From a virus, in IMG/VR virus record IMGVR_UViG_3300028600_000022, positions 1 through 20,070 of that record: a DNA stretch of 20,070 nucleotides; one strand, given 5' to 3'. Shown here piece after piece: positions 1 through 20,070 of this stretch. The notes beneath the pieces are model-generated. The model was not told where the DNA came from. It ran no database searches and was given only the letters and a program-made list of their open reading frames with translations. The position numbers were made by a program, and so were the translations under genes. Within the stretch, counting starts at the first letter, position 1. Each line of letters begins with the position of its first letter.

Positions 1-25
1 GGGGAAGAAGCTCGCTCGCTTTTCG
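1..25. other. cos: candidate cos (cohesive-end) site, left copy
   Basis: The first 12 bases, GGGGAAGAAGCT, are identical to the last 12 of the window. From memory, lambda's left end also begins with a 12-nt cohesive sequence starting GGG and ending CCT, followed by CGC and, shortly after, TTTTCG. Here CTCGC occupies the same positions (11-15) and TTTTCG is at 20-25. The site is about 75 bases upstream of the small terminase gene, as in lambda-type phages. Filling in 12-nt 5' overhangs would give this terminal duplication. An assembler overlap is the alternative. Confidence 0.5.
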
Positions 26-7501: not shown

Positions 7502-7666
7502 GTGCAAGGCAAAAAGACATACATGCTGGCGCTCGCCGCAGTGCTCGCGGGTATCGCTGGCTACATGCAAGGCCAGCTCGATCTACAGCAGGCGCTCGAA
7601 TCAGTGTGGGCTGGCGGCGTGGCCGCGGCGTTGCGTCACGGGCTCGCGCGTGCCGGGTTGAACTAA
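7502..7666 (+). CDS. holin-like small membrane protein
   Basis: A 54-aa ORF with a GTG start and AAGGA at 7488-7492. KKTYMLALAAVLAGIAGYM (about residues 4-22) is one membrane helix after a basic N-terminus; a second weaker hydrophobic or amphipathic segment (about 33-46) is followed by LRHGLARAGLN. This layout, with a short KGKKTY-type opening, an Ala/Gly helix and an alpha-helical tail ending near RHG, resembles small phage membrane proteins usually annotated as holins or unknown. A role in making membrane lesions for lysis is inference; no endolysin gene is next to it. Confidence 0.6.
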   Translation: MQGKKTYMLALAAVLAGIAGYMQGQLDLQQALESVWAGGVAAALRHGLARAGLN

Positions 7667-7684
7667 TGTGAAGGAGTTGTTCCG

Positions 7685-7987
7685 ATGGCGACGTATGCAG
7701 AAATTGTCAACCTATTATCCGATCCGGCATACCAAGGATTGAAGGACAGAACCGCGGTAGCTTCGAGCGTGAAGGCGCACGAAGTCTCCCAGGCGCCGAC
7801 TCCGAGCGCAGAGGCAAAGGCCTGGGCGGTTCGCGCGCTCACAAATCCGCGCGAAGAGTCGGAAGTGATCATAAACTTCGTTCTGGCCGCGAACGTTGCG
7901 GCGACTGCGACGCAGATATTGACCGCCAATGATGCGACGCTGCAGGCTGCAGTAAATGACGCGGTCGATACGCTTTTGGGGGCCTAG
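7685..7987 (+). CDS. conserved phage protein, function unknown; source of a 91-nt inverted copy
   Basis: A 100-aa mostly helical, soluble protein starting MATYAEIVNLLSDPAYQ, with AKAWAVRALTNP and FVLAANVAATATQILTANDA further on. I recall similar small proteins encoded near phage head and tail fibre genes, with no known function. GAAGGAG at 7671-7676 gives a clear start. Bases 7715-7805 (codons 11-41) occur again, perfectly and in reverse complement, at 19351-19441. Because this gene has the intact family-like frame, it is the likely source of that copy. Confidence 0.75.
   Translation: MATYAEIVNLLSDPAYQGLKDRTAVASSVKAHEVSQAPTPSAEAKAWAVRALTNPREESEVIINFVLAANVAATATQILTANDATLQAAVNDAVDTLLGA
7715..7805 (+). 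repeat. 91-nt inverted repeat, source arm
   Basis: Identical over 91 of 91 bases to the reverse complement of 19351-19441, checked base by base. The match stops at both ends (7714 and 7806 differ). It lies wholly inside the 100-aa gene at 7685-7987. Confidence 0.97.
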
Positions 7988-7989
7988 TA

Positions 7990-8499
7990 ATGGCAACATC
8001 ACAAGCCCAGATCAACGTCGGCACTGGCGTCAAATTCAACGGGGAGGCTGGCGCAGACGTTGCATTCTCTATGGAGGCTGTCGCGTCTGCGGCGGGGCGG
8101 GTTTCTGCGCAATACGATCTTGGCGCGTCGCCGCGGGACTTTCTGTTCATGTGGCACGGCGAGCTGTTGATGCAGGCAACGCCGACGCAGTATCGGACCA
8201 TCGACTTCTATGCAGCCGGAGCTTACGACGCCGATGCGACCATGATATGGGGCGACGTCGGGGCAACGGATGCGGCGCTCGGTGACGAGGACCAGTTGCG
8301 TAATTTGCTTCAGATCGGCAGCGTGGTTGTCGAGGAAGCGAACACGACAAAGATGGTTGGTGGGGGACGGTTCTATTGGCCGCATCGCTACATCAGCATC
8401 GTTGGCTTCAACAACTACACCGGCGCGACAATCAACGCGACTGATTCCAATTTTCTGTTCTTCCTGCAGCCGTACAACATCCAAGGGCAGGCCACCTAA
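7990..8499 (+). CDS. probable virion protein, function unknown
   Basis: A 169-aa beta-rich protein. Features are MATSQAQINVGTGVKFNG at the start, LRNLLQIGSVVVEE in the middle and FYWPHRYISIVGFNNYTGA near the end. The last pattern (P-RY-hydrophobic-V--N-TG) is one I associate with small virion-surface or fibre-associated proteins in phages, without a named function. It begins three bases after the previous stop, and its TAA overlaps the next ATG by one base (TAATG). This suggests coupling with the LamG adhesin, of which it may be a partner. Confidence 0.7.
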   Translation: MATSQAQINVGTGVKFNGEAGADVAFSMEAVASAAGRVSAQYDLGASPRDFLFMWHGELLMQATPTQYRTIDFYAAGAYDADATMIWGDVGATDAALGDEDQLRNLLQIGSVVVEEANTTKMVGGGRFYWPHRYISIVGFNNYTGATINATDSNFLFFLQPYNIQGQAT

Positions 8500-10178
8500 T
8501 GCTCGTCGAGCTTCCTACCGATGACTGGAGCTTTGCGCCGCGCGTCACTGAGGCGCGCATCGACCGCGGGAAGCCGCTTGCCCGGCGCTTGCAGTTTGCG
8601 ACGATACCAGGCGACCGACCGTTTAATCTGGTTACAAAGACGTTCTGCTACGGGGTAAGAACCGGAGCAAAACCTGTCGGCGGTGAGTCAGGTACTGCGC
8701 TGCGCTTTGGCGGTGCCGCGAGTGGCGACAACTTCAGGTTTTCGGACGCAAGTCACAGCATCGGAAGCAAATACACTGGCGCGCAGTCGATTGTGCAGGT
8801 GCCGCATACCTGGGTTTTCCGGTTCAAGGCGCTCGCGGTATCCACGCGCGGTGGCCTGATGCAGTACACCGACCAGGATGCAGGCAACTCGGGGCTGTAC
8901 GCGTTTTTAGAGGGAGCGGACTCTACGGCGCGGTATTCAGTTTCGAACAGCGGTTCAAATTACACGTCAAGCCCCACCTACACACTCAATAAATGGCACA
9001 CCGTCGCGTTCACATACGATCCGGTCTCTAACAAGCTGAACAGCTATCTAGATGGCAAGCGCGGCACAGAGGCGACCGAGGCAAGTCCGACAACGAACAC
9101 ATCAATCTCGCGGTTTTTGATTGGAGACTGCTTCGCTGGGTTCGATCGGGAGCTCGACGGCGAAATTAGTTTATTCGCATTTTGGGACCGCGCGCTCACA
9201 CCAAGCGAAGGCCGCTTCCTGACAAATGGCGATAACTGGCTGACGCTGTTCGAAGGTGAGCAATCGGTATTTTTCCCGGCCGAATCAGCGGGTGCGGGCG
9301 GGTTTACCACGACCCTCGAAACCAAGGCGATCGGCGACCAGGCGCAGATCACCGGGCTGATCTCTGCGCTCGACGTGCTCGCGAAGGCGGGGCTTGTGCA
9401 GAGCACAGGCCTGGTCACCGTGCTCGATGCACTGGCGTCGACCGGCCAGGCTGCCGTGACTGGGCACGTGACGACCCTCGACGCGCTGACGAAGCTCGGG
9501 CTTCAGGCAAGTTTCCCGGGCGTTGCGGGTTTCGCGACCGTGCTCGACGCGCTGACGGCTGCCGGCCAGGCCGCTGGCACTGGTCACGGGACCGTGCTCG
9601 ACGCGCTGACGGCGGCGGGGCTTCAGCAGAACCTGGGCGCGGTCGGCGAGTTCACGACCGTTCTGGATTCACTGAGCGCTGCCGGACAGGCCGCGGCGCT
9701 TGGCCTGATCACCGCACTGGACGCTTTGACCGTCACGGAGCGCGCCCAGGCGCTCGGATTCATCACCAGCGTCAACACGCTGGACGCTGACGGGCTCAAT
9801 CAGAGCTTCGGCGGGGCTGGGTTCACGACCGCCCTGAAGGCGTTAGCGGCCGCTGGGCTCTCCCAGGGGATGACCATCTGGGACCTCGGCGACGCGCTCG
9901 CCGCGGCATATGCCGATCTGCCGGCGTTTTTCGACACGTTCGGATTTTCCGAGCCGGTGGTAGTCGGGGCTGTCACCGTGCGCGGACTGTTCGATGATGA
10001 TTCGGTCGAGAACGGGGAGCTGGCGGGGCCGCAAGTCATGTTGCAGGTGGGCGACGTGGACACGCTCGGCATCGACCAGGGGACAGAGATCACCATACGC
10101 GGGCGGGCCTTCTACGTGGCTGGGGTACAGCGCGACGGGCTTGGCCTGGCGAACGTTGTGCTGCGTGATACTTCCTGA
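8499..10178 (+). CDS. LamG adhesin / tandem repeats / gpFII-like head-tail connector fusion
   Basis: A 559-aa protein with three parts in one continuous frame. Residues about 85-245 look like a concanavalin/LamG fold (WVFRFKALAVSTRGGLMQYT; KWHTVAFTYDPVSNKLNSYL; GEISLFAFWDRALTPSEGRF), which usually binds sugars or surfaces. Residues about 268-457 are around nine 17-23-aa repeats with the core TVLDALTAAGQAA. Residues 458-559 (MTIWDLGDALAAAY; FSEPVVVGAVTVRGLFDDD; GTEITIRGRAFYVAGVQRDG) resemble lambda gpFII-type connectors. The next gene is gpZ-like, as expected after FII. An in-frame ATG at 9870 with AGGGG directly against it could start a separate 102-aa connector. Domain calls are by pattern only. 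Confidence 0.8.
   Translation: MLVELPTDDWSFAPRVTEARIDRGKPLARRLQFATIPGDRPFNLVTKTFCYGVRTGAKPVGGESGTALRFGGAASGDNFRFSDASHSIGSKYTGAQSIVQVPHTWVFRFKALAVSTRGGLMQYTDQDAGNSGLYAFLEGADSTARYSVSNSGSNYTSSPTYTLNKWHTVAFTYDPVSNKLNSYLDGKRGTEATEASPTTNTSISRFLIGDCFAGFDRELDGEISLFAFWDRALTPSEGRFLTNGDNWLTLFEGEQSVFFPAESAGAGGFTTTLETKAIGDQAQITGLISALDVLAKAGLVQSTGLVTVLDALASTGQAAVTGHVTTLDALTKLGLQASFPGVAGFATVLDALTAAGQAAGTGHGTVLDALTAAGLQQNLGAVGEFTTVLDSLSAAGQAAALGLITALDALTVTERAQALGFITSVNTLDADGLNQSFGGAGFTTALKALAAAGLSQGMTIWDLGDALAAAYADLPAFFDTFGFSEPVVVGAVTVRGLFDDDSVENGELAGPQVMLQVGDVDTLGIDQGTEITIRGRAFYVAGVQRDGLGLANVVLRDTS
9301..9868 (+). repeat. tandem coding repeats in the adhesin/connector gene
   Basis: About nine imperfect units of roughly 51-69 nt. 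They encode variants of G-F-x-T-x-LDAL-x-AAGQAA and are visible in DNA as recurrent CTCGACGCGCTGACG. Unit length varies through short insertions such as SFPG and NLGA. They likely form an extended helical or solenoid stalk between the LamG and connector parts, and are a possible site of unit-number change by slippage. Confidence 0.8.
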
Positions 10179-12935: not shown

Positions 12936-13726
12936 CACGCATATCAAAAGACATGCTAGACGGCGAGGTGGTCCTGTCGACCAAGGGCGACCGCGCTAGA
13001 CGATCGTTCCAGGTGACAGAGCTTGTCGGCGCCGACTTCGCGCGCCTTGTTTCGGCTGCGAAGGCAAGCGGATTGCCGCAGAAGGGCGAGCCGCATCCGG
13101 CGCTGTCAGGCGTGCGTGTTCTCGACGTCACCGCGCGACCTACAAACGATCCGTCGATCGCTATCGTGGACGTTGACTATGGCGTTCCGAGCGCGTCGGA
13201 TATATCCAGCAGCTCGGACGGGGCCGAGGTCTCCATTACGGCGAGCCTGATCACCGAGGAGACTACGAGGGACATTTTCGGGAATTTTCTGCGCACGACA
13301 TGGACCTTCCGATTCTCGACGGCCGATCCGGGCGATCCGGACGGCAACCGGTCGATTCAGGAAGCGACGCTAAGCTCGAACATTCATCGGCTGGAAGTGC
13401 AAGTGCCGACGTTTAGCGTTCAGTTTACGCGCATCGAGAAAAGCCCGCCGCTGGCGCTGACGCGCAAATTTTCGGGAAAAGTAAACTCGGGCGCGTTTCT
13501 AAATGAGAGCCAGGACGCGTGGCTGTGCACGATCTCGAGCACGCAGCAGGGGCCGAATGAGCACCGCGTCGTGTATTCTTTCACGTTCAACCGGCGGGGC
13601 TGGCAAGCGATCCTTACCCATACGGTAGACGGCGTGATCCCGGAGGACTTGACCGCGGACGGGGTGCAGGTGAAGCAAGTCTATTCGCGCCGTAATTTTT
13701 CATCGCTCGGGCTTCCAAAGATATGA
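12932..13726 (+). CDS. tail-region protein, function unknown
   Basis: A 264-aa protein, ATGA-coupled to the tape measure. I do not recognise it. It is mainly beta, without membrane segments or signal peptide, with stretches such as GVRVLDVTARPTNDPSIAIV, LRTTWTFRFSTADP and EHRVVYSFTFNRRGWQAILT. From its place right after the tape measure it is the best candidate for a distal-tail or tail-tip protein, a slot filled in lambda by gpM/gpL. It overlaps the next gene by ATGA at 13723-13726. Confidence 0.75.
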   Translation: MTRISKDMLDGEVVLSTKGDRARRSFQVTELVGADFARLVSAAKASGLPQKGEPHPALSGVRVLDVTARPTNDPSIAIVDVDYGVPSASDISSSSDGAEVSITASLITEETTRDIFGNFLRTTWTFRFSTADPGDPDGNRSIQEATLSSNIHRLEVQVPTFSVQFTRIEKSPPLALTRKFSGKVNSGAFLNESQDAWLCTISSTQQGPNEHRVVYSFTFNRRGWQAILTHTVDGVIPEDLTADGVQVKQVYSRRNFSSLGLPKI

Positions 13727-14028
13727 TCATGAAGGCGCCACGGGTGGCGCGCGGGCAGGCGATCACGGCGAACCTGTGGAATGAGCTGGCGGACGCAGTC
13801 GATGAAAGTCTATTTAGCCCGCGTGACATAACAGCAGGAATAACGACGGAAGAGGTCGAGGAGATTGTCACATCGGGCTCGACGTCATGGACTGAGATAT
13901 CGCGCACCAGCGACACGGTACGTGTAGAGAATCCGGAAGACGCTACGCAATTTGTCGACGTCGAACGGATGCGTACAATCGTTTTCCAAGGTGGCGCCGG
14001 GACGCTCACATTCACGTATAAACCGTGA
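13723..14028 (+). CDS. small tail-region protein, function unknown
   Basis: A 101-aa protein starting MIMKAPRVARGQAITANLWN. The GQAIT-x-x-x-WN-x-L-x-DAV opening is common in small phage tail or fibre-associated proteins, where it forms a leading helix. The rest is beta-type, ending AGTLTFTYKP. Both ends overlap neighbours by four bases (ATGA and GTGA), so it is translated as part of the tail block. An exact role cannot be given. Confidence 0.7.
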   Translation: MIMKAPRVARGQAITANLWNELADAVDESLFSPRDITAGITTEEVEEIVTSGSTSWTEISRTSDTVRVENPEDATQFVDVERMRTIVFQGGAGTLTFTYKP

Positions 14029-14864: not shown

Positions 14865-16139
14865 ATGGCAACGGTTGTATGGCAGGGCGGCGCCGCAGCC
14901 GTCGCACAGGTGAGCACTGGCAGCGTCGACAGTTACGACGCCGCTTCCACGTACACGGTCACTATCGGGGGTTATCTCGTGAGCGTGGTCGGCGATACGG
15001 ACGTTGCGACGACGGCGACGAACCTACGCGCTGCGCTGAATGCGAGCACCAACCCGTATTTTGCGGCGATCACCTGGTCGGGCTCGACGGGTGACATCAC
15101 CGGCACGGGCGATACGGCCGGGGCGCCGTTCCTGGCGGTGCTCAGCGTCGCGAGTGGCACCGGTACGATCACCGATTTTTCCGACACGACCGCGTGCACC
15201 GGCCCGCATCACGCTAACGTCGGCGTCAACTGGAGCAGTGGCGGGATCCCGACGACGTCGGACGACGTCGTGATCGAGGGCGGGCCTTCGATCCTCTATG
15301 AGCTGGACGCGATCACCGCGGTCGCGCTCGGGCGCGTCGAGGTGCGCCAGGCGTTCGTGTCTAAGGTCGGGCTTGAGCCGTCCGGATTCGCGACGTCGCT
15401 CGACGGCGAAACGGTGGTGAACACCATTCCGGAGTATCGAGGTGCCTACTTCGAGCTGACCGCAGATGAGATTGTGATCGGTGAACACATCGGGCCGGGG
15501 ACGCCATCGGGCTCGGCGCGGATCTGCATTGACCAGAAAAAGGCAGGCGCGAGCACGCTTGACGTGGTCAACACCGGCACCAGCAGCGTATTCGACCGCC
15601 CGGCCGTGCGCTACCTGGCGGCGAATGCTAGTGCGGACATCGTGATCCGCAGCGCTCCGAGTGGGGTCGGCGTGGCGGTCGAGCCTGGCGAAACCAGCAC
15701 CATCGGCGACGTGTTCGTGGTGGACACCTCGACGACGTCGAATTGCTACATCGGGCCGGGGACCACGCTCACGCAATACGAGCAATCCGGCGGCGTGAGC
15801 ACGATCAGCGCGGCGGCGACCATCACGACGCTTAATTGCTTAGGTGGGACGCTGCGGATCGTCGGGTATGACTACCTGATCACGACGCTGAACGTCTATG
15901 GTGGAGACGTGACCGATACGCACGAGAACACCGCGGGAGCGGAGTGGACGACGATCTCGATGTATGGGGGGGCGCTGAGCCTGCCATTGTCGACGGCCGG
16001 CACCGCGCGGGCATTCACGACTGCGAATCTGTACGGCGGCGCGCTCGACGCCGACTGGTCGGGGGTGTCGGGCACGGTCTCGATCCCTACGGACGCTAAG
16101 ATCACGTCGCTTCGCTCTGTCGAAGTGACGCAGCTCTGA
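14865..16139 (+). CDS. probable tail fibre with beta-helix
   Basis: A 424-aa Thr/Ser/Gly/Val-rich protein. It starts MATVVWQGGAAAVAQVSTGS, followed by an ATNLRAALNAS helix; WSSGGIPTTSDDVVIEGGPS near 131-150 and then short repeating strands through to the C-terminus, with LNVYGGDV, ISMYGGAL and NLYGGALD near the end spaced like beta-helix rungs. Such proteins are common at phage tail ends and serve in host-surface contact; a depolymerase activity cannot be claimed because no catalytic motif is evident. It closes the tail block. Confidence 0.75.
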   Translation: MATVVWQGGAAAVAQVSTGSVDSYDAASTYTVTIGGYLVSVVGDTDVATTATNLRAALNASTNPYFAAITWSGSTGDITGTGDTAGAPFLAVLSVASGTGTITDFSDTTACTGPHHANVGVNWSSGGIPTTSDDVVIEGGPSILYELDAITAVALGRVEVRQAFVSKVGLEPSGFATSLDGETVVNTIPEYRGAYFELTADEIVIGEHIGPGTPSGSARICIDQKKAGASTLDVVNTGTSSVFDRPAVRYLAANASADIVIRSAPSGVGVAVEPGETSTIGDVFVVDTSTTSNCYIGPGTTLTQYEQSGGVSTISAAATITTLNCLGGTLRIVGYDYLITTLNVYGGDVTDTHENTAGAEWTTISMYGGALSLPLSTAGTARAFTTANLYGGALDADWSGVSGTVSIPTDAKITSLRSVEVTQL

Positions 16140-16142
16140 TCC

Positions 16143-16463
16143 ATGCCGGCGCCGGGCGACTTGCGGGCACTGGTCGCCGGTGGTCTTTCGGCCGCAGCCG
16201 TCGCCATTGCCGCGCCGTACGCGATCCCAGAGGTGGTGCGCCCCGATCCGTTCCTCGGCGCGGATGCCGAGAAGCTTCGCGCCGAGTTGAGCGAGACTTT
16301 CGAGCTGGAATTACGACTGCTACGTGCCGAGCTGCGGCTTCAGCTCCCACCAGAACCGACGCGCCTTCGAATCCAGGCACTGGAGGATGCCGTACGGGAG
16401 CTGCAGCCGACTTTCCGGCCGCCCACAAGCCGTTTCTCCCGGTGGGGCGGTCCGGACCCGTAG
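16143..16463 (+). CDS. membrane-anchored coiled-coil protein, spanin-like layout
   Basis: A 106-aa protein with one N-terminal hydrophobic helix (about residues 8-26, LVAGGLSAAAVAIAAPYAIP), then a charged coiled coil (about 38-65 and 73-89: EKLRAELSETFELELRLLRA) and a basic end. This is the layout of an inner-membrane spanin (Rz-like), which would complete lysis at the outer membrane, but other anchored coiled-coil proteins look the same. I found no nested lipoprotein (Rz1-like) partner in the other frames here. It begins three bases after the fibre stop, with no good Shine-Dalgarno. Confidence 0.6.
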   Translation: MPAPGDLRALVAGGLSAAAVAIAAPYAIPEVVRPDPFLGADAEKLRAELSETFELELRLLRAELRLQLPPEPTRLRIQALEDAVRELQPTFRPPTSRFSRWGGPDP

Positions 16464-16601
16464 CGGCGACTTGACGCGCTGGATTGCTTGGCGCATGTTG
16501 GCGCCTGCCGTTCCTCGCGGCATCGGCGGGGGCTGTGGGCGGATCTCAGGGGCGCAAGCTCGGGCAGAACGTCTCCAGTCCCTGCCACCTTCGCGGGGGC
16601 G

Positions 16602-16627
16602 GCGTCAATCCATGACGCGAGGAAACG
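16602..16627 (+). promoter_or_regulatory. hairpin overlapping a shared ribosome-site element
   Basis: GCGTCA (16602-16607) pairs with TGACGC (16613-16618) and runs into CGCGAGGAAACG (16616-16627), three bases before ATG at 16631. The same 12-nt element occurs at 17012-17023, again three bases before an ATG (17027). It lies at the end of a 167-nt noncoding stretch (16464-16630) in which I see no other clear feature. Confidence 0.45.
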
Positions 16628-16630
16628 TCG

Positions 16631-16924
16631 ATGTTCTACCCGCTGGTCCCCCTGGAGCGGTCGCTGGATGGCTCCATGTTTCGCGAGCTGCCACCGCTCG
16701 ATGTTCACGTGCTTTTCAACGAGTTAAGTCGGGCTGGCGTGCCCGATGACCGGCTGCGCACGATCTGCGAGCAGCTGGAGTCAGGCGCGACTGTCGATCT
16801 GGCGCCCGCGCTGCGCGCCGCCGGAATGCTCAACATGTCAGCCTGGCTTCGCCCCGCGACGGCGGCGCTTGCGGTCTCCATGGACCGTATCCGGCTGATC
16901 CTTGGCATGGATCGTGGCTCATGA
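16631..16924 (+). CDS. hypothetical 97-aa protein
   Basis: No family recognised. A mixed helical protein: MFYPLVPLERSLDGSMFREL, a helix around DVHVLFNELSRAGVPDDRL, then an Ala/Leu-rich half (LRPATAALAVSMDRIRLILG). No signal peptide. The AGGA of CGCGAGGAAACG (16616-16627) gives a good start. It is ATGA-coupled to a 25-aa membrane peptide. Confidence 0.65.
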   Translation: MFYPLVPLERSLDGSMFRELPPLDVHVLFNELSRAGVPDDRLRTICEQLESGATVDLAPALRAAGMLNMSAWLRPATAALAVSMDRIRLILGMDRGS

Positions 16925-16998
16925 CTGGCCGCGACCTGCTGCTCTCGGGCGTCTACCTGCTGCTGTGCGCCCTGATAATTATGGCTGTGCCCGCATGA
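16921..16998 (+). CDS. 25-aa membrane peptide
   Basis: ATG overlaps the previous stop as ATGA. MTGRD is followed by one continuous hydrophobic helix (LLLSGVYLLLCALIIMAV) and ends PA. It resembles single-helix micropeptides, including toxic or holin-like ones, but no family can be named. Coupling and a clean hydrophobic profile support it as a real gene. Confidence 0.45.
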   Translation: MTGRDLLLSGVYLLLCALIIMAVPA

Positions 16999-17026
16999 TC
17001 GGGCTTGAAACCGCGAGGAAACGGTG

Positions 17027-17338
17027 ATGAATGAAGATCTTGAATACACGAACCTGTGCAAGGAAAGCTCTCTGAAGGGCGCCTATGCCACGTCTGCCCA
17101 GCTGATCCTGGGAGGATGGGATTTCTCCGTTTTCATCGAGCCACTCGAGCGGCCTGGCTGGCTTTTCTACGTACGCAACAAAGACTTGCCGATCATCAAG
17201 CACCGGATCGCGCATGTGACGCGAGTGGACGAGGATGCAGCGCCCTACCGCGAGAACGCGGCCGCGCTTGTGAGAGCCATGGATGGGGTTGAGGGGTTCA
17301 CCACCAGCCCGCCCGCGTCGCGCAAGGTGCGGACATGA
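17027..17338 (+). CDS. hypothetical 103-aa protein
   Basis: No family recognised. Soluble: MNEDLEYTNLCKESSLKGAY, a strand-rich centre (GGWDFSVFIEPLERPGWLFY) and a charged helical C-terminal part. I chose ATG at 17027 rather than the in-frame GTG at 17024. Its spacing from CGCGAGGAAACG (17012-17023) equals that at the 16631 gene. A 17-codon frame, ATGA-linked at both ends, bridges its stop to the replication gene. Confidence 0.65.
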   Translation: MNEDLEYTNLCKESSLKGAYATSAQLILGGWDFSVFIEPLERPGWLFYVRNKDLPIIKHRIAHVTRVDEDAAPYRENAAALVRAMDGVEGFTTSPPASRKVRT

Positions 17339-17384
17339 GCACTCACAGCGCGGCGGCGCTTGTCAAGGCGGCGGGTGCGGCACC

Positions 17385-18173
17385 ATGAGCAACTTATGCC
17401 TAACCTGGGCCTTCGAACAGTGCGATCTGAAACCCCCCGAACGCTTCGTGCTGGTCGTTCTGGCTGACAGGGCGAACCAGGACGGCGTGTGCATTCCTTC
17501 CGTGCGCGACCTATCCCTACGCACAGGGTATAGCCAGCGACGCGTTCAGCAGCTCGTGAAGGCGCTCGTGCGCTACGGCCTGGTCGAGACACTGGAGCGC
17601 GAAGGCCAGCGCGGGCGGCAGACGTCGAACATGTACATCCTGCACATCGAGCGGGGCCGCACAATCCAGGAAGTCGGTCGCTCGAAACAGCGCGTCGCGG
17701 AGTATCACGCGAGCCTGCCACGGACCCCGTCAGACGTCGGGCCGGGGCGTGAACAACCCTGTGGACAACCTGTGGATAACTTACATCCGGAAGGTCCAGA
17801 ATTTCACCCCCCCCCCGAAAAGATTTCGCCCCTGGATGTGTCTGAAATTTCACCCCTTGAACCTCCTATTAACCCTCTTACAGCACACACCTCTGACTTT
17901 GTATCAAGGGCGGGTGCTGTGGATAACCCTCCAAAGGAGTCGCCATCCATGGCGACGAGCACCGTTACGTCGCCTGACGGCGCCGGTGCTGCGGTCACGC
18001 TCTCCGACGATGCACAGGCAAAGCTAATCGGTGAGCGCCCCTCACGGGGCGCTGGTAGAGCCAGCGCGCCAAGGGGCGCGCAAGGGGTTCGGCAAGGTAA
18101 TCAGGCGTACCTGGACGCGCTGCGGGTGGCCGATGAGCTACTCTCGCGCAGCTCGAAGACTGGGGGGGCGTGA
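17385..18173 (+). CDS. replication initiation protein, winged helix-turn-helix (HTH_36 type)
   Basis: A 262-aa protein. Residues about 8-88 are a winged helix: FEQCDLKPPERFVLVVLADR, then IPSVRDLSLRTGYSQRRVQQ with recognition helix about 50-62, and a wing to YILHIERG. Such HTH_36 proteins act as phage replication initiators or regulators, comparable to lambda O. The C-terminal half is low-complexity, with PVDNLHPEGP and VDNPPKESP encoded by DnaA-box-like DNA, so origin sequence lies inside the gene. Start ATG 17385 overlaps the stop of a 17-codon frame. The end is GTGA-coupled to the next gene. A role in loading host helicase is likely but not shown. Confidence 0.8.
   Translation: MSNLCLTWAFEQCDLKPPERFVLVVLADRANQDGVCIPSVRDLSLRTGYSQRRVQQLVKALVRYGLVETLEREGQRGRQTSNMYILHIERGRTIQEVGRSKQRVAEYHASLPRTPSDVGPGREQPCGQPVDNLHPEGPEFHPPPEKISPLDVSEISPLEPPINPLTAHTSDFVSRAGAVDNPPKESPSMATSTVTSPDGAGAAVTLSDDAQAKLIGERPSRGAGRASAPRGAQGVRQGNQAYLDALRVADELLSRSSKTGGA
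17748..17926. other. candidate replication origin with DnaA boxes
   Basis: TGTGGACAA (17760-17768), TGTGGATAA (17771-17779) and TGTGGATAA (17918-17926) match the DnaA box (complement TTATCCACA). CGTGAACAA (17748-17756) is a weaker fourth. The first two are 11 bases apart, about one helical turn. Between the clusters lie three iteron-like repeats and a locally A+T-richer stretch (about 17836-17910). Placement inside the initiator gene copies the lambda ori-in-O arrangement. Confidence 0.7.
17799..17856 (+). repeat. three iteron-like repeats
   Basis: The core ATTTCRCCCC occurs at 17801-17810, 17823-17832 and 17847-17856 (R = A, G, A), starts spaced 22 and 24 bases, close to two helical turns. 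They encode FHP, ISP and ISP. Probably binding sites of the winged-helix protein encoded around them. A run of ten Cs (17807-17816) ends the first unit. Confidence 0.6.
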
Positions 18174-18823
18174 GCGTGGCGTGGAGGCACCCGACAGGCG
18201 GCGCACCGCGTCACGTGGACATGGTAGCGCTCGGGCAGAGCTGCCAGGCCTGGATGCATCACCAGCTGCGCAAGAACCGGCCGCGCGCCGATATCGGGCC
18301 GCTGAGCACGGAAGTCTGGACGGTGAACCGCGGAATACGGCTGTTTGCCGCTGATATGGCGTTCATTCTCGATGAGCTGGACTCCGAAATACAACGCGAT
18401 AAATCGTACGGCGACGCCATCATTAGTTACGAAAAGCCTATTATTACAACGCGTTGCAGTCCGCTCGTGCATACGTCGCAACGGTATCCAGCCGCCGAGA
18501 TACTGGATTGCATTCGGGAGTGGGCGCCGATTGGCGATCCGTACTGGCACAACAGCATCCCGATGATCGTGGCCTATGCCATGTTGATCGGCGTCAAGTC
18601 GATGGTCATTTGGGGCGCTGATTACACGCTGCCAGGTGGGCGGACCATCGAGGACGATCGGGCGAACCTGGAATACTGGATCGGGTTCGCTCGGGCTCGG
18701 GGCATGAAGGTCGGCGTGCCCATGGAATCGACGTTGTTGAACAGTTTGAAGCACCAGGGCGAGTTGCACGTGTACGGGTTGCTTGATCAGGGCGAGGCGC
18801 AGGCCTGGCTGGAGGGGAGATGA
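18170..18823 (+). CDS. Rossmann-like protein, DUF115/MptE-type pattern
   Basis: A 217-aa protein (GTG start, GTGA overlap). The pattern resembles a phage family related to DUF115 / MptE-like folds: VDMVALGQSCQAWM near the start, EVWTVNRGIRLFAADMAFIL, then NSIPMIVAYAMLIGVKSMVI, WGADYTLP and a W-x-G-x-AR-x-RGM-x-V tail. Relatives modify or bind nucleotides or sugars, but no reaction can be assigned to the phage versions. Base composition around 18380-18460 is less G+C-rich than its neighbours. It is ATGA-coupled to the cysteine-rich cluster, with no clear link to the replication gene beyond co-transcription. Confidence 0.6.
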   Translation: MSVAWRHPTGGAPRHVDMVALGQSCQAWMHHQLRKNRPRADIGPLSTEVWTVNRGIRLFAADMAFILDELDSEIQRDKSYGDAIISYEKPIITTRCSPLVHTSQRYPAAEILDCIREWAPIGDPYWHNSIPMIVAYAMLIGVKSMVIWGADYTLPGGRTIEDDRANLEYWIGFARARGMKVGVPMESTLLNSLKHQGELHVYGLLDQGEAQAWLEGR

Positions 18824-19092
18824 CAGACAAAGAAAAAGTGCACTACGCGGGGCTATATCACTTGAAACGCCATCCAGGCAGACCATGCGCGTGCGAGTTC
18901 TCGGACGACAACGGCGACACCGTGCTGAGCTGGTGCGAGTTCCACAAGGAGCTGCGTGAGCGCATCGCGGAGCTGAAGAACATCATTTTAGAGGCACCGC
19001 ACCATGAAGATTGCGCGTCACTAATTTGGGAAAGTGGCACGCCGCGCTCACCGTGCGATTGCTGGAAGCGCAAGGCACTGGAGGACGGGTGA
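18820..19092 (+). CDS. cysteine-rich protein A (one H-C-CxC module)
   Basis: A 90-aa protein. The N-terminal part carries CAC (23-25) and WCEFH (38-42), a possible zinc site. The C-terminal module, about 46-90, is RERIAELKNIILEAPHHEDC, then SPCDCWKRKALEDG: a helix, His61/His62 and Cys65, and CxC at 79-81, a probable metal-binding fold. The same module ends the 252-aa gene downstream (97.8% identical DNA) and occurs in divergent form in its first part. ATG overlaps the previous stop (ATGA) with GGAGG at 18811-18815; its TGA overlaps the next ATG (TGATG). No family name known to me. Confidence 0.75.
   Translation: MTDKEKVHYAGLYHLKRHPGRPCACEFSDDNGDTVLSWCEFHKELRERIAELKNIILEAPHHEDCASLIWESGTPRSPCDCWKRKALEDG
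18955..19092 (+). repeat. 138-nt direct repeat, copy 1
   Basis: Matches 19713-19850 without gaps at an offset of 758 bases, 135 of 138 identical; the three differences lie in the segment gcgtcactaattt versus gcgttactatatt. It encodes the last 45 residues of cysteine-rich protein A and the stop. Confidence 0.97.
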
Positions 19093-19850
19093 TGTCTAGT
19101 GAACTACACATACCGACAGAAGTTGCGGACGCCATGCGTGCATTGCGGCCTGAGCTTAGGAAAAAGCTATCGCTGCGTGACATTGACGATATGACGCGGC
19201 CGTTCCGCAAGCGCATCGAGGAACTGAAGGATGCCATCCGCAAAGGCCCTCACCAGATGGGGTGCCACAGTCTTCAGAAACCGAATACCCCAGGATGGGC
19301 GAGCTTGGAACTATGCGACTGTTGGAAGCGCAAAGCACTGGAGGGCGAGTTCGGAGTCGGCGCCTGGGAGACTTCGTGCGCCTTCACGCTCGAAGCTACC
19401 GCGGTTCTGTCCTTCAATCCTTGGTATGCCGGATCGGATAAGATGTCTCATCGTGACAGGCTAGAAATGTGGCACCTTGCGGTAAGTGAAGGCGAGCCGG
19501 AGCCAGAATTACTCTTTGACCTTGCAGAAAGTGCGGTAGTGCGCATCGAGGAGCTGGAGGCGGCCGCGGATGCTGTGGCGAGAATTGTCGAGTACGAGCT
19601 ACGCGGTAACATGGATTCAGTATGCGATGACCCGCGGTGCCACGATTCGCAGGTGCCGATAGACGACGGAGCGCGGCTCGCTCTATGCGGAAGGTGCGCG
19701 TTGATTCGTGCCCGTGAGCGCATCGCGGAGCTGAAGAACATCATTTTAGAGGCACCGCACCATGAAGATTGCGCGTTACTATATTGGGAAAGTGGCACGC
19801 CGCGCTCACCGTGCGATTGCTGGAAGCGCAAGGCACTGGAGGACGGGTGA
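19092..19850 (+). CDS. fused cysteine-rich protein (two genes joined by an inverted insert)
   Basis: A 252-aa ORF that appears to be two genes. Residues 1-86 hold a divergent module (RRIEELKDAIRKGP equivalent at about 40-53, with H54, C58 and CDCWKRKALEG at 75-85). Residues 87-117 are encoded by the inverted 91-nt copy and are out of keeping with their surroundings. Residues 118-252 start with ATG at 19443 and carry C178/C183, C199-x-x-C202 and a final module (208-252), nearly identical to protein A. Removing the insert gives GAG TGATG TCT, a stop/start overlap like that at 19090-19094. Start ATG 19092 overlaps the previous TGA. Function unknown; zinc-binding is inferred. Confidence 0.7.
   Translation: MSSELHIPTEVADAMRALRPELRKKLSLRDIDDMTRPFRKRIEELKDAIRKGPHQMGCHSLQKPNTPGWASLELCDCWKRKALEGEFGVGAWETSCAFTLEATAVLSFNPWYAGSDKMSHRDRLEMWHLAVSEGEPEPELLFDLAESAVVRIEELEAAADAVARIVEYELRGNMDSVCDDPRCHDSQVPIDDGARLALCGRCALIRARERIAELKNIILEAPHHEDCALLYWESGTPRSPCDCWKRKALEDG
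19351..19441 (-). repeat. 91-nt inverted copy of 7715-7805 inserted at a gene junction
   Basis: 91 of 91 bases equal the reverse complement of 7715-7805. Flanks are unrelated (19350 T against C; 19442 G against T). It sits between the T and the GATG of an apparent ancestral TGATG junction. On + strand transcripts this segment is antisense to the mRNA of the 100-aa gene at 7685-7987. Confidence 0.97.
19713..19850 (+). repeat. 138-nt direct repeat, copy 2
   Basis: The second copy of the repeat at 18955-19092, ending with the same TGA. The bases after the stops differ (TGATG against TGAAC). Crossing over between copies would remove 758 bases and leave one intact module gene. Confidence 0.97.
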
Positions 19851-20032
19851 ACATCCGCGCCATCCTCGAAACCCACGGCATTCGCTGCCCTGAAGACTCA
19901 GGCATGCCATGCGCTGAGTGCGGCTCAGTCGATGCGGTGTGCCCGCGGTGCCACGCCAGCATCCAGGCCACGGTGAGGAAGGCGGACGGGTGGCGTAAGT
20001 GGGAGCAGCGCGCGCTATGGCCTTCACCATAA
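19847..20032 (+). CDS. small zinc-finger-like protein
   Basis: A 61-aa ORF, GTG start overlapping the previous TGA (GTGA). It has MPCAECGSVDAVCPRCHA in its centre: CxxC and CxxCH, a clear four-cysteine zinc ribbon, preceded by IRCPEDSG and followed by a helix and a Trp-rich end (DGWRKWEQRALWPSP). It continues the cysteine-rich cluster. The function is unknown; such phage proteins often bind nucleic acids or host enzymes. Confidence 0.65.
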   Translation: MNIRAILETHGIRCPEDSGMPCAECGSVDAVCPRCHASIQATVRKADGWRKWEQRALWPSP

Positions 20033-20070
20033 AAGGTACTCCTGCCGCCTCTGGTGCGGGGGAAGAAGCT
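20017..20070 (+). CDS. possible 32-aa ORF crossing the genome ends
   Basis: ATG at 20017 (GGGAG at 20001-20005) reads 18 codons to the window end. If the ends are joined through the 12-nt overlap, it continues in frame from base 13 to TAA at 55-57, giving MAFTIKGTPAASGAGEEARS followed by LFVFPGAQSDRH. It would only exist in circular or concatemeric DNA. Short, so it may be chance. Confidence 0.25.
   Translation, partial: MAFTIKGTPAASGAGEEA
20059..20070. other. cos: candidate cos site, right copy
   Basis: The last 12 bases, GGGGAAGAAGCT, equal bases 1-12. A 12-base match exactly at the two ends is very unlikely by chance. It indicates circularity, a cohesive-end fill-in, or an assembler overlap. 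Confidence 0.5.

Follow-up and report, generated by a model that had tools for sequence, protein, structure and literature searches.

An exact 91-base inverted self-copy in an open reading frame of an uncultivated tailed phage, perhaps a one-off insertion

A stretch of 91 bases near the right end of the virus record IMGVR_UViG_3300028600_000022 is an exact inverted copy of a stretch 11.5 kb away in the same record. The window analysed here is the whole IMG/VR record, 20,070 bases from an uncultivated virus. Bases 19351-19441 match the reverse complement of 7715-7805 at 91 of 91 positions, and the agreement breaks off at the very next base on each side. Given the length and base composition, about 10^-44 such matches are expected by chance, and a repeat finder returned this pair as the longest inverted repeat of the window. 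The exact inverted copy claimed in an earlier sequence-only reading is thus confirmed, and the feature is truly present in the record. A search with 19301-19491 found no third copy in the record. The insert reads TCGGAG...GATAA and is bounded by GAGT and GATG. The insert lacks terminal inverted repeats and is not flanked by a target duplication, and its joints show no microhomology (0 shared bases at both), in agreement with the earlier remark that no mobile-element ends are visible. We lean towards the view that the insert is a one-off capture of the phage's own DNA in replication or repair, and not a new system. The features discussed below are collected in Table 1.

Table 1. Coordinates of the features in the 20,070-base window
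Feature	Position	Strand	Remarks
Left copy of 12-base terminal direct repeat	1..12	+	read as filled-in cohesive end
Probable donor gene, 100 aa, head/tail block	7685..7987	+	AAGGAG upstream of ATG; fits between neighbours
Probable source segment	7715..7805	+	codons 11-40 and first base of codon 41 of ORF 7685-7987
Paralogous 90-aa gene	18820..19092	+	TGATG junction 19090-19094, model for the uninserted state
138-base module, first copy	18955..19092	+	repeat of 19713-19850
Fused ORF, 252 aa from ATG at 19092	19092..19850	+	two putative former genes and ~30 insert-encoded residues; open frame
Putative left former gene, 86 codons	19092..19350	+	ends ...CDCWKRKALEGE; presumed stop split by insert after T
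Inserted segment, 91 bases	19351..19441	+	exact reverse complement of 7715-7805; no flanking homology
Putative right former gene	19443..19850	+	begins ATGTCTCATCG, ends ...CDCWKRKALEDG
138-base module, second copy	19713..19850	+	repeat of 18955-19092
Next ORF, 61 aa	19847..20032	+	GTG start overlaps fused-ORF stop; five cysteines, two pairs CxxC
Right copy of 12-base terminal direct repeat	20059..20070	+	identical to 1-12

Recipient site and the fused reading frame

The left flank reads ...CTGGAGGGCGAGT and is followed by the insert and then by the right flank, GATGTCTCATCG..., while the uninserted paralogous junction reads ...CTGGAGGACGGGT followed directly by GATGTCTAGTG.... Joining the two flanks gives TGATG, as at 19090: an in-frame TGA stop overlaps the next ATG, and GGAGG lies upstream. 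Overlaps of 1 or 4 bases are found at all four of the other gene junctions in the run 18170-19850 and at 10 of the 29 junctions in our hand-made gene list. Judged from the paralog and from this gene style, the presumed uninserted state is well supported. The flanks and ORF 19092-19850 bear out the earlier description of a precise insertion in a stop/start junction, with the stop lost and the fused frame open.

The fusion carries less weight than that description gave it. Any 91-base insert would shift the frame at this junction the right way, and 18,505 of 39,958 91-base pieces (46%; pieces from every position and both strands of the window, including those that overlap the site itself) keep the frame open at the insertion site. 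The in-frame fusion is therefore no sign of selection: the open frame of 252 residues is confirmed, and as evidence it is worth about a coin toss.

The label "cysteine-rich" given to the two genes is fair for their C-terminal modules, which read PHHEDC...CDCWKRKA in two of the three window copies and PHQMGC...CDCWKRKA in the third. The 138-base modules form a direct repeat of 98% identity with 3 differences, confined to 7 bases (19019, 19024 and 19025). Both copies encode the C-terminus PHHEDC...CDCWKRKALEDG, and the N-termini that precede it differ, as though the module had been shuffled.

The record, its ends and its relatives

By its family matches the window is from a tailed phage with a lambda-type packaging set. 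Matches to PF05876, PF20454 and PF05136 identify a gpA-type terminase and a lambda-family portal, and a family search places protease and capsid matches within one window protein. Further matches indicate a small terminase, a head-tail adaptor, and decoration, neck and major tail proteins; tape-measure matches fall in a 374-residue ORF, and an O-like replication protein is also encoded. At the right end of the record, small genes with cysteine motifs follow one another and overlap. Elsewhere in the window, the 559-residue ORF 8499-10178 matches a tail protein weakly at residues 115-244, looks repetitive in its middle and, at its C-terminus, matches the head-closure family phrog_82 (residues 476-557); a 744-residue ORF of contig L049 is partly similar to it.

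Bases 1-12 are identical to bases 20059-20070. The 12-mer has no further occurrence in the window and none in 2.55 Mb of other loci, and as a background rate 2 of 2,000,000 random position pairs of the window have the same 12-mer. A terminal direct repeat of 8-200 bases was found in 1 of 202 other loci, a set with many cut pieces that gives no fair test of contig ends. The one case is Pseudomonas phage MD8 (KX198612, a linear record titled complete genome), in which the repeat is also 12 bases, the portal protein is related to that of the window and the annotated terminase genes lie at the left end; the other two isolate phages have no terminal direct repeat. In the window the small terminase gene starts at base 87, and a position beside the cos site is the expected one for this gene. 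In our reading the record is a complete genome, about 20,058 bases long, whose 12-base cos ends were filled in during library preparation; it would then probably be a complete and very small phage genome (~20.06 kb) with lambda-type packaging genes. If the cos-end reading is right, the sequenced material was probably linear virion DNA prepared by a ligation method, and random-primed amplification would then be less likely. The presence of both apparent genome ends suggests a sound assembly of unamplified virion DNA.

The regions around both copies have few relatives. As DNA, 18801-20070 and 7663-8002 have no match in phages, in a collection from which records very near the window may be absent, and 7663-8002 has none in plasmids. 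At the protein level, the 18820 gene and ORF 7685 have no relatives in phages at E 1 and none in pattern-seeded scans of viral contigs, in which near-window records are again possibly absent; ORF 7685 has no relative among the ORFs of 199 loci (best E 2.6), and none was found for the 18170 gene. A degenerate DNA pattern matched once in the viral contigs, at 4594-4833 of L005 (IMGVR_UViG_3300012685_000288), which encodes a distant small protein with an HHxxC...CDCWKRKA motif. By capsid and portal the nearest relatives are contigs of 5 to 12 kb, 66-75% identical, and in L007, L049 and L109 other ORFs occupy the expected position of the donor gene. The proposal to look for the un-inserted TGATG junction in related phages has so far yielded neither an empty-site nor a diverged relative by which to date the event.

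Inverted copies of this length are rare in our comparison set of 171 viral loci, which includes the window and comprises 1.93 Mb; 91 of its loci are 10 kb or longer, and it omits L123 and four loci that had been cut out of the window. Exact inverted matches of at least 35 bases occur in 3 of the 171, namely the window (91 bases), L011 and L012 (41 bases), and in 0 of 28 bacterial-genome loci. Exact inverted repeats of at least 42 bases are found only in the window among all 171 viral and 28 bacterial-genome loci, although this control may understate the true rate, since many of the loci are short, some nearly duplicate one another, and long repeats tend to interrupt assemblies made from short reads. 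In three isolate phages, exact inverted matches reach at most 27 bases. L011 and L012, which are 99.99% identical over 13,356 bases, were rejected as a parallel case: their 41-base copies, inverted and direct, are low-complexity intergenic repeats. In L012, a phage contig, simple repeats of the AAGGTTAAAGGT / CTTCAGCC type lie on both strands at 8050-8170, 9820-9880, 13200-13300 and 13650-13740, and the copies at 9831, 13251 and ~13700 directly precede start codons.

Origin of the inserted segment

In the explanation we favour, a break would have opened in the stop codon of gene 19092-19350, after its T and before its GA, and a 91-base fragment or short copy of the DNA of ORF 7685-7987 would have been joined in there, inverted. 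The fragment may have been captured by end joining, or the polymerase may have strayed briefly to another strand; the way of joining, the direction of copying and the setting within an infected cell are presumed. The stop would thereby be removed, GGAGG moved away from the next ATG and a single 252-residue protein made. If a DNA fragment were captured bluntly at a break, a join with neither loss nor overlap would be expected. As an alternative, a polymerase excursion that returned to the exact next base without pairing would be hard to explain. Because the joints show neither overlap nor loss, an end-joining activity would be needed; none is among the family matches of the window proteins. The segment has two properties of a captured or templated insertion: all 91 bases are a copy of sequence elsewhere in the genome, and the rejoined flanks make a sensible junction, the same as in the paralog. 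As an accident, the insertion would not need a function to explain its 91 bases. If it is real, this would be a clean case of a phage gaining new coding sequence in one step, by inserting a fragment of its own backwards, and phage genomes could then be searched for the same pattern, short and exact inverted self-copies at joints where genes overlap.

The main rival, which we regard as a serious though not the favoured possibility, is that the insert is absent from the phage and arose as an amplification, library or assembly chimera at a thinly covered spot near the right end of the contig. The two copies are perfectly identical in a record from an uncultivated virus of which no second assembly was seen, the site lies ~0.6 kb from the contig end and between the two 138-base repeats, and no other of the 171 viral loci has an inverted repeat of this size, all of which would fit a chimera. 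So would the orientation. The parts of the MDA literature drawn on here make inversion the main form of chimera: Lasken and Stockwell found 406 of 475 to be inverted, mostly with an intervening deletion (PMC1855051). The T7 replisome likewise yields inverted chimeras in vitro, in the account we drew on largely by switching to the displaced strand (PMC9484634), which makes a replication-born inverted copy conceivable in the cell as in the tube.

In other respects the insert is not a typical MDA product, because its two joints lack overlap, apparently no base was lost and the parts lie 11.5 kb apart. MDA chimeras of the described kind consist of two segments with an intervening deletion, whereas here the flanks are contiguous by comparison with the paralog. 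Most MDA inversions (337 of 406) span less than 10 kb (PMC1855051), and in a second study, as far as it is drawn on here, inverted chimeras occur mainly within 5 kb and those without overlap amount to 0.4% (PMC5372508). Short overlaps at the joint predominate only in inversions that span less than 10 kb: in the data used here, complementary bases are present at 93.5% of inverted joints under 10 kb vs 34.8% beyond (PMC1855051), so that their absence from both joints of the insert is not odd. A double join back to the exact next base without overlap is not described in those parts of the MDA and T7 studies on which we draw (PMC1855051, PMC5372508, PMC9484634). From what these sources give of their design, one used reads of ~100 bases and joins of two sequences (PMC1855051) and the other kept two-segment chimeras alone (PMC5372508), and a double join around 91 bases would therefore be invisible to both MDA studies. 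The retention of both apparent cos ends also speaks against a chimera, since random-primed amplification would tend to lose them. If the insert is nevertheless an artefact, a contig that otherwise looks complete can carry an internal chimera and, with it, a false fusion gene.

Within the capture explanation, we assign the role of donor to ORF 7685-7987 with moderate confidence, on sequence grounds. Without the 91 bases this ORF would shift frame and end after 30 residues, so the 7685 copy is more likely the original. The opposite direction, with the 19351 segment as the original and the copy in 7685-7987 derived from it, is highly improbable: besides truncating the donor ORF, removal of the segment leaves a normal coupled junction at the recipient site. 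The sole PHROGs match of ORF 7685-7987 up to E 10, a weak one to phrog_13378 (E 0.016), starts within the segment at residue 11 and reaches past the segment's right edge to residue 53, which also argues against this direction. The one point in its favour is a codon score that is slightly higher in the recipient frame (0.078 bits per codon) than in the donor frame (0.006). Both values lie below the mean of 0.375 (sd 0.168) for 30-codon pieces of the training genes, and codon use does not separate donor from recipient. Pfam added nothing for ORF 7685-7987, NCBIfam gave only an unrelated match at E 0.13, and phrog_13378, when sought in 50 of the records from which the loci came, turned up once, as a weak match (E 0.006) interrupted by a stop. 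Structure prediction from the single sequence of the ORF gives a helical model of low confidence (mean pLDDT 52.5). The earlier designation of the source as a structural-region gene is probable: the ORF sits in the head/tail block, but phrog_13378 is its only phage-family match, a weak one, and the sequence searches found no relative.

A function for the 91-base copy is unlikely. The copy might have been kept because it is useful, either as an antisense RNA that silences the 7685 gene in trans through perfect complementarity to its codons 11 to 40 or as part of a fused protein with a new role, and we give this very little credence. With both ORFs on the + strand, pairing of their transcripts over 91 bases would be possible, and the fused frame is open, but an open frame arises for nearly half of all inserts, as described above. 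There is no fold beyond chance (z of -0.30 and -0.78 as RNA, -0.43 and -0.26 as DNA), no Rfam match in the window at the gathering score and no tRNA, and an RNA element is accordingly not supported. Sigma-70-type promoter-like sites in 16000-20070 number 0 vs 0.7 expected in shuffles, which is weak evidence, and no other exact copy of the 27-base core of the segment was found in the viral contigs, a collection that may lack records very near the window. Still harder to credit is a self-derived, built-in antisense device in which the transcript of the cysteine cluster would time or limit the head/tail-block gene, with the same event making the new fused protein.

Comparison with known systems

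A transposon or insertion sequence was rejected, as there are no terminal inverted repeats and no target-site duplication. Diversity-generating retroelements place a copy of about 100 bases in another gene. They too were rejected, since the copy here is inverted, 100% identical and without adenine changes; no reverse transcriptase was found among the window proteins scanned, which represent part of the ORFs. The sequence-only reading had left three causes open. Of these, active conversion finds no support, because donor and recipient have no flanking homology; a recent one-off insertion is favoured; and a chimera is the main rival, of which the typical MDA form fits the insert badly.

Quasipalindrome template switching in E. 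coli and yeast likewise involves inverted copying but, in the accounts drawn on here, needs an imperfect inverted repeat. It was rejected, the flanks of donor and recipient being without homology and 11.5 kb apart. Chimeras of strand-displacement amplification (MDA, and the T7 replisome in vitro) resemble the insert as inverted joins of two parts of one genome and differ from it in the two joints, the return to the next base, the lack of overlap and the distance.

Templated or captured-fragment insertions at double-strand breaks have been described in yeast and human cells, and in the part of the yeast work used here the inverted ones are mostly foldbacks of ~5-34 bp (PMC11724301). A narrow search of the open-licence literature found no such insertion in a natural phage genome. 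Like the insert, these are short and often inverted copies from elsewhere in the genome, placed at a break.
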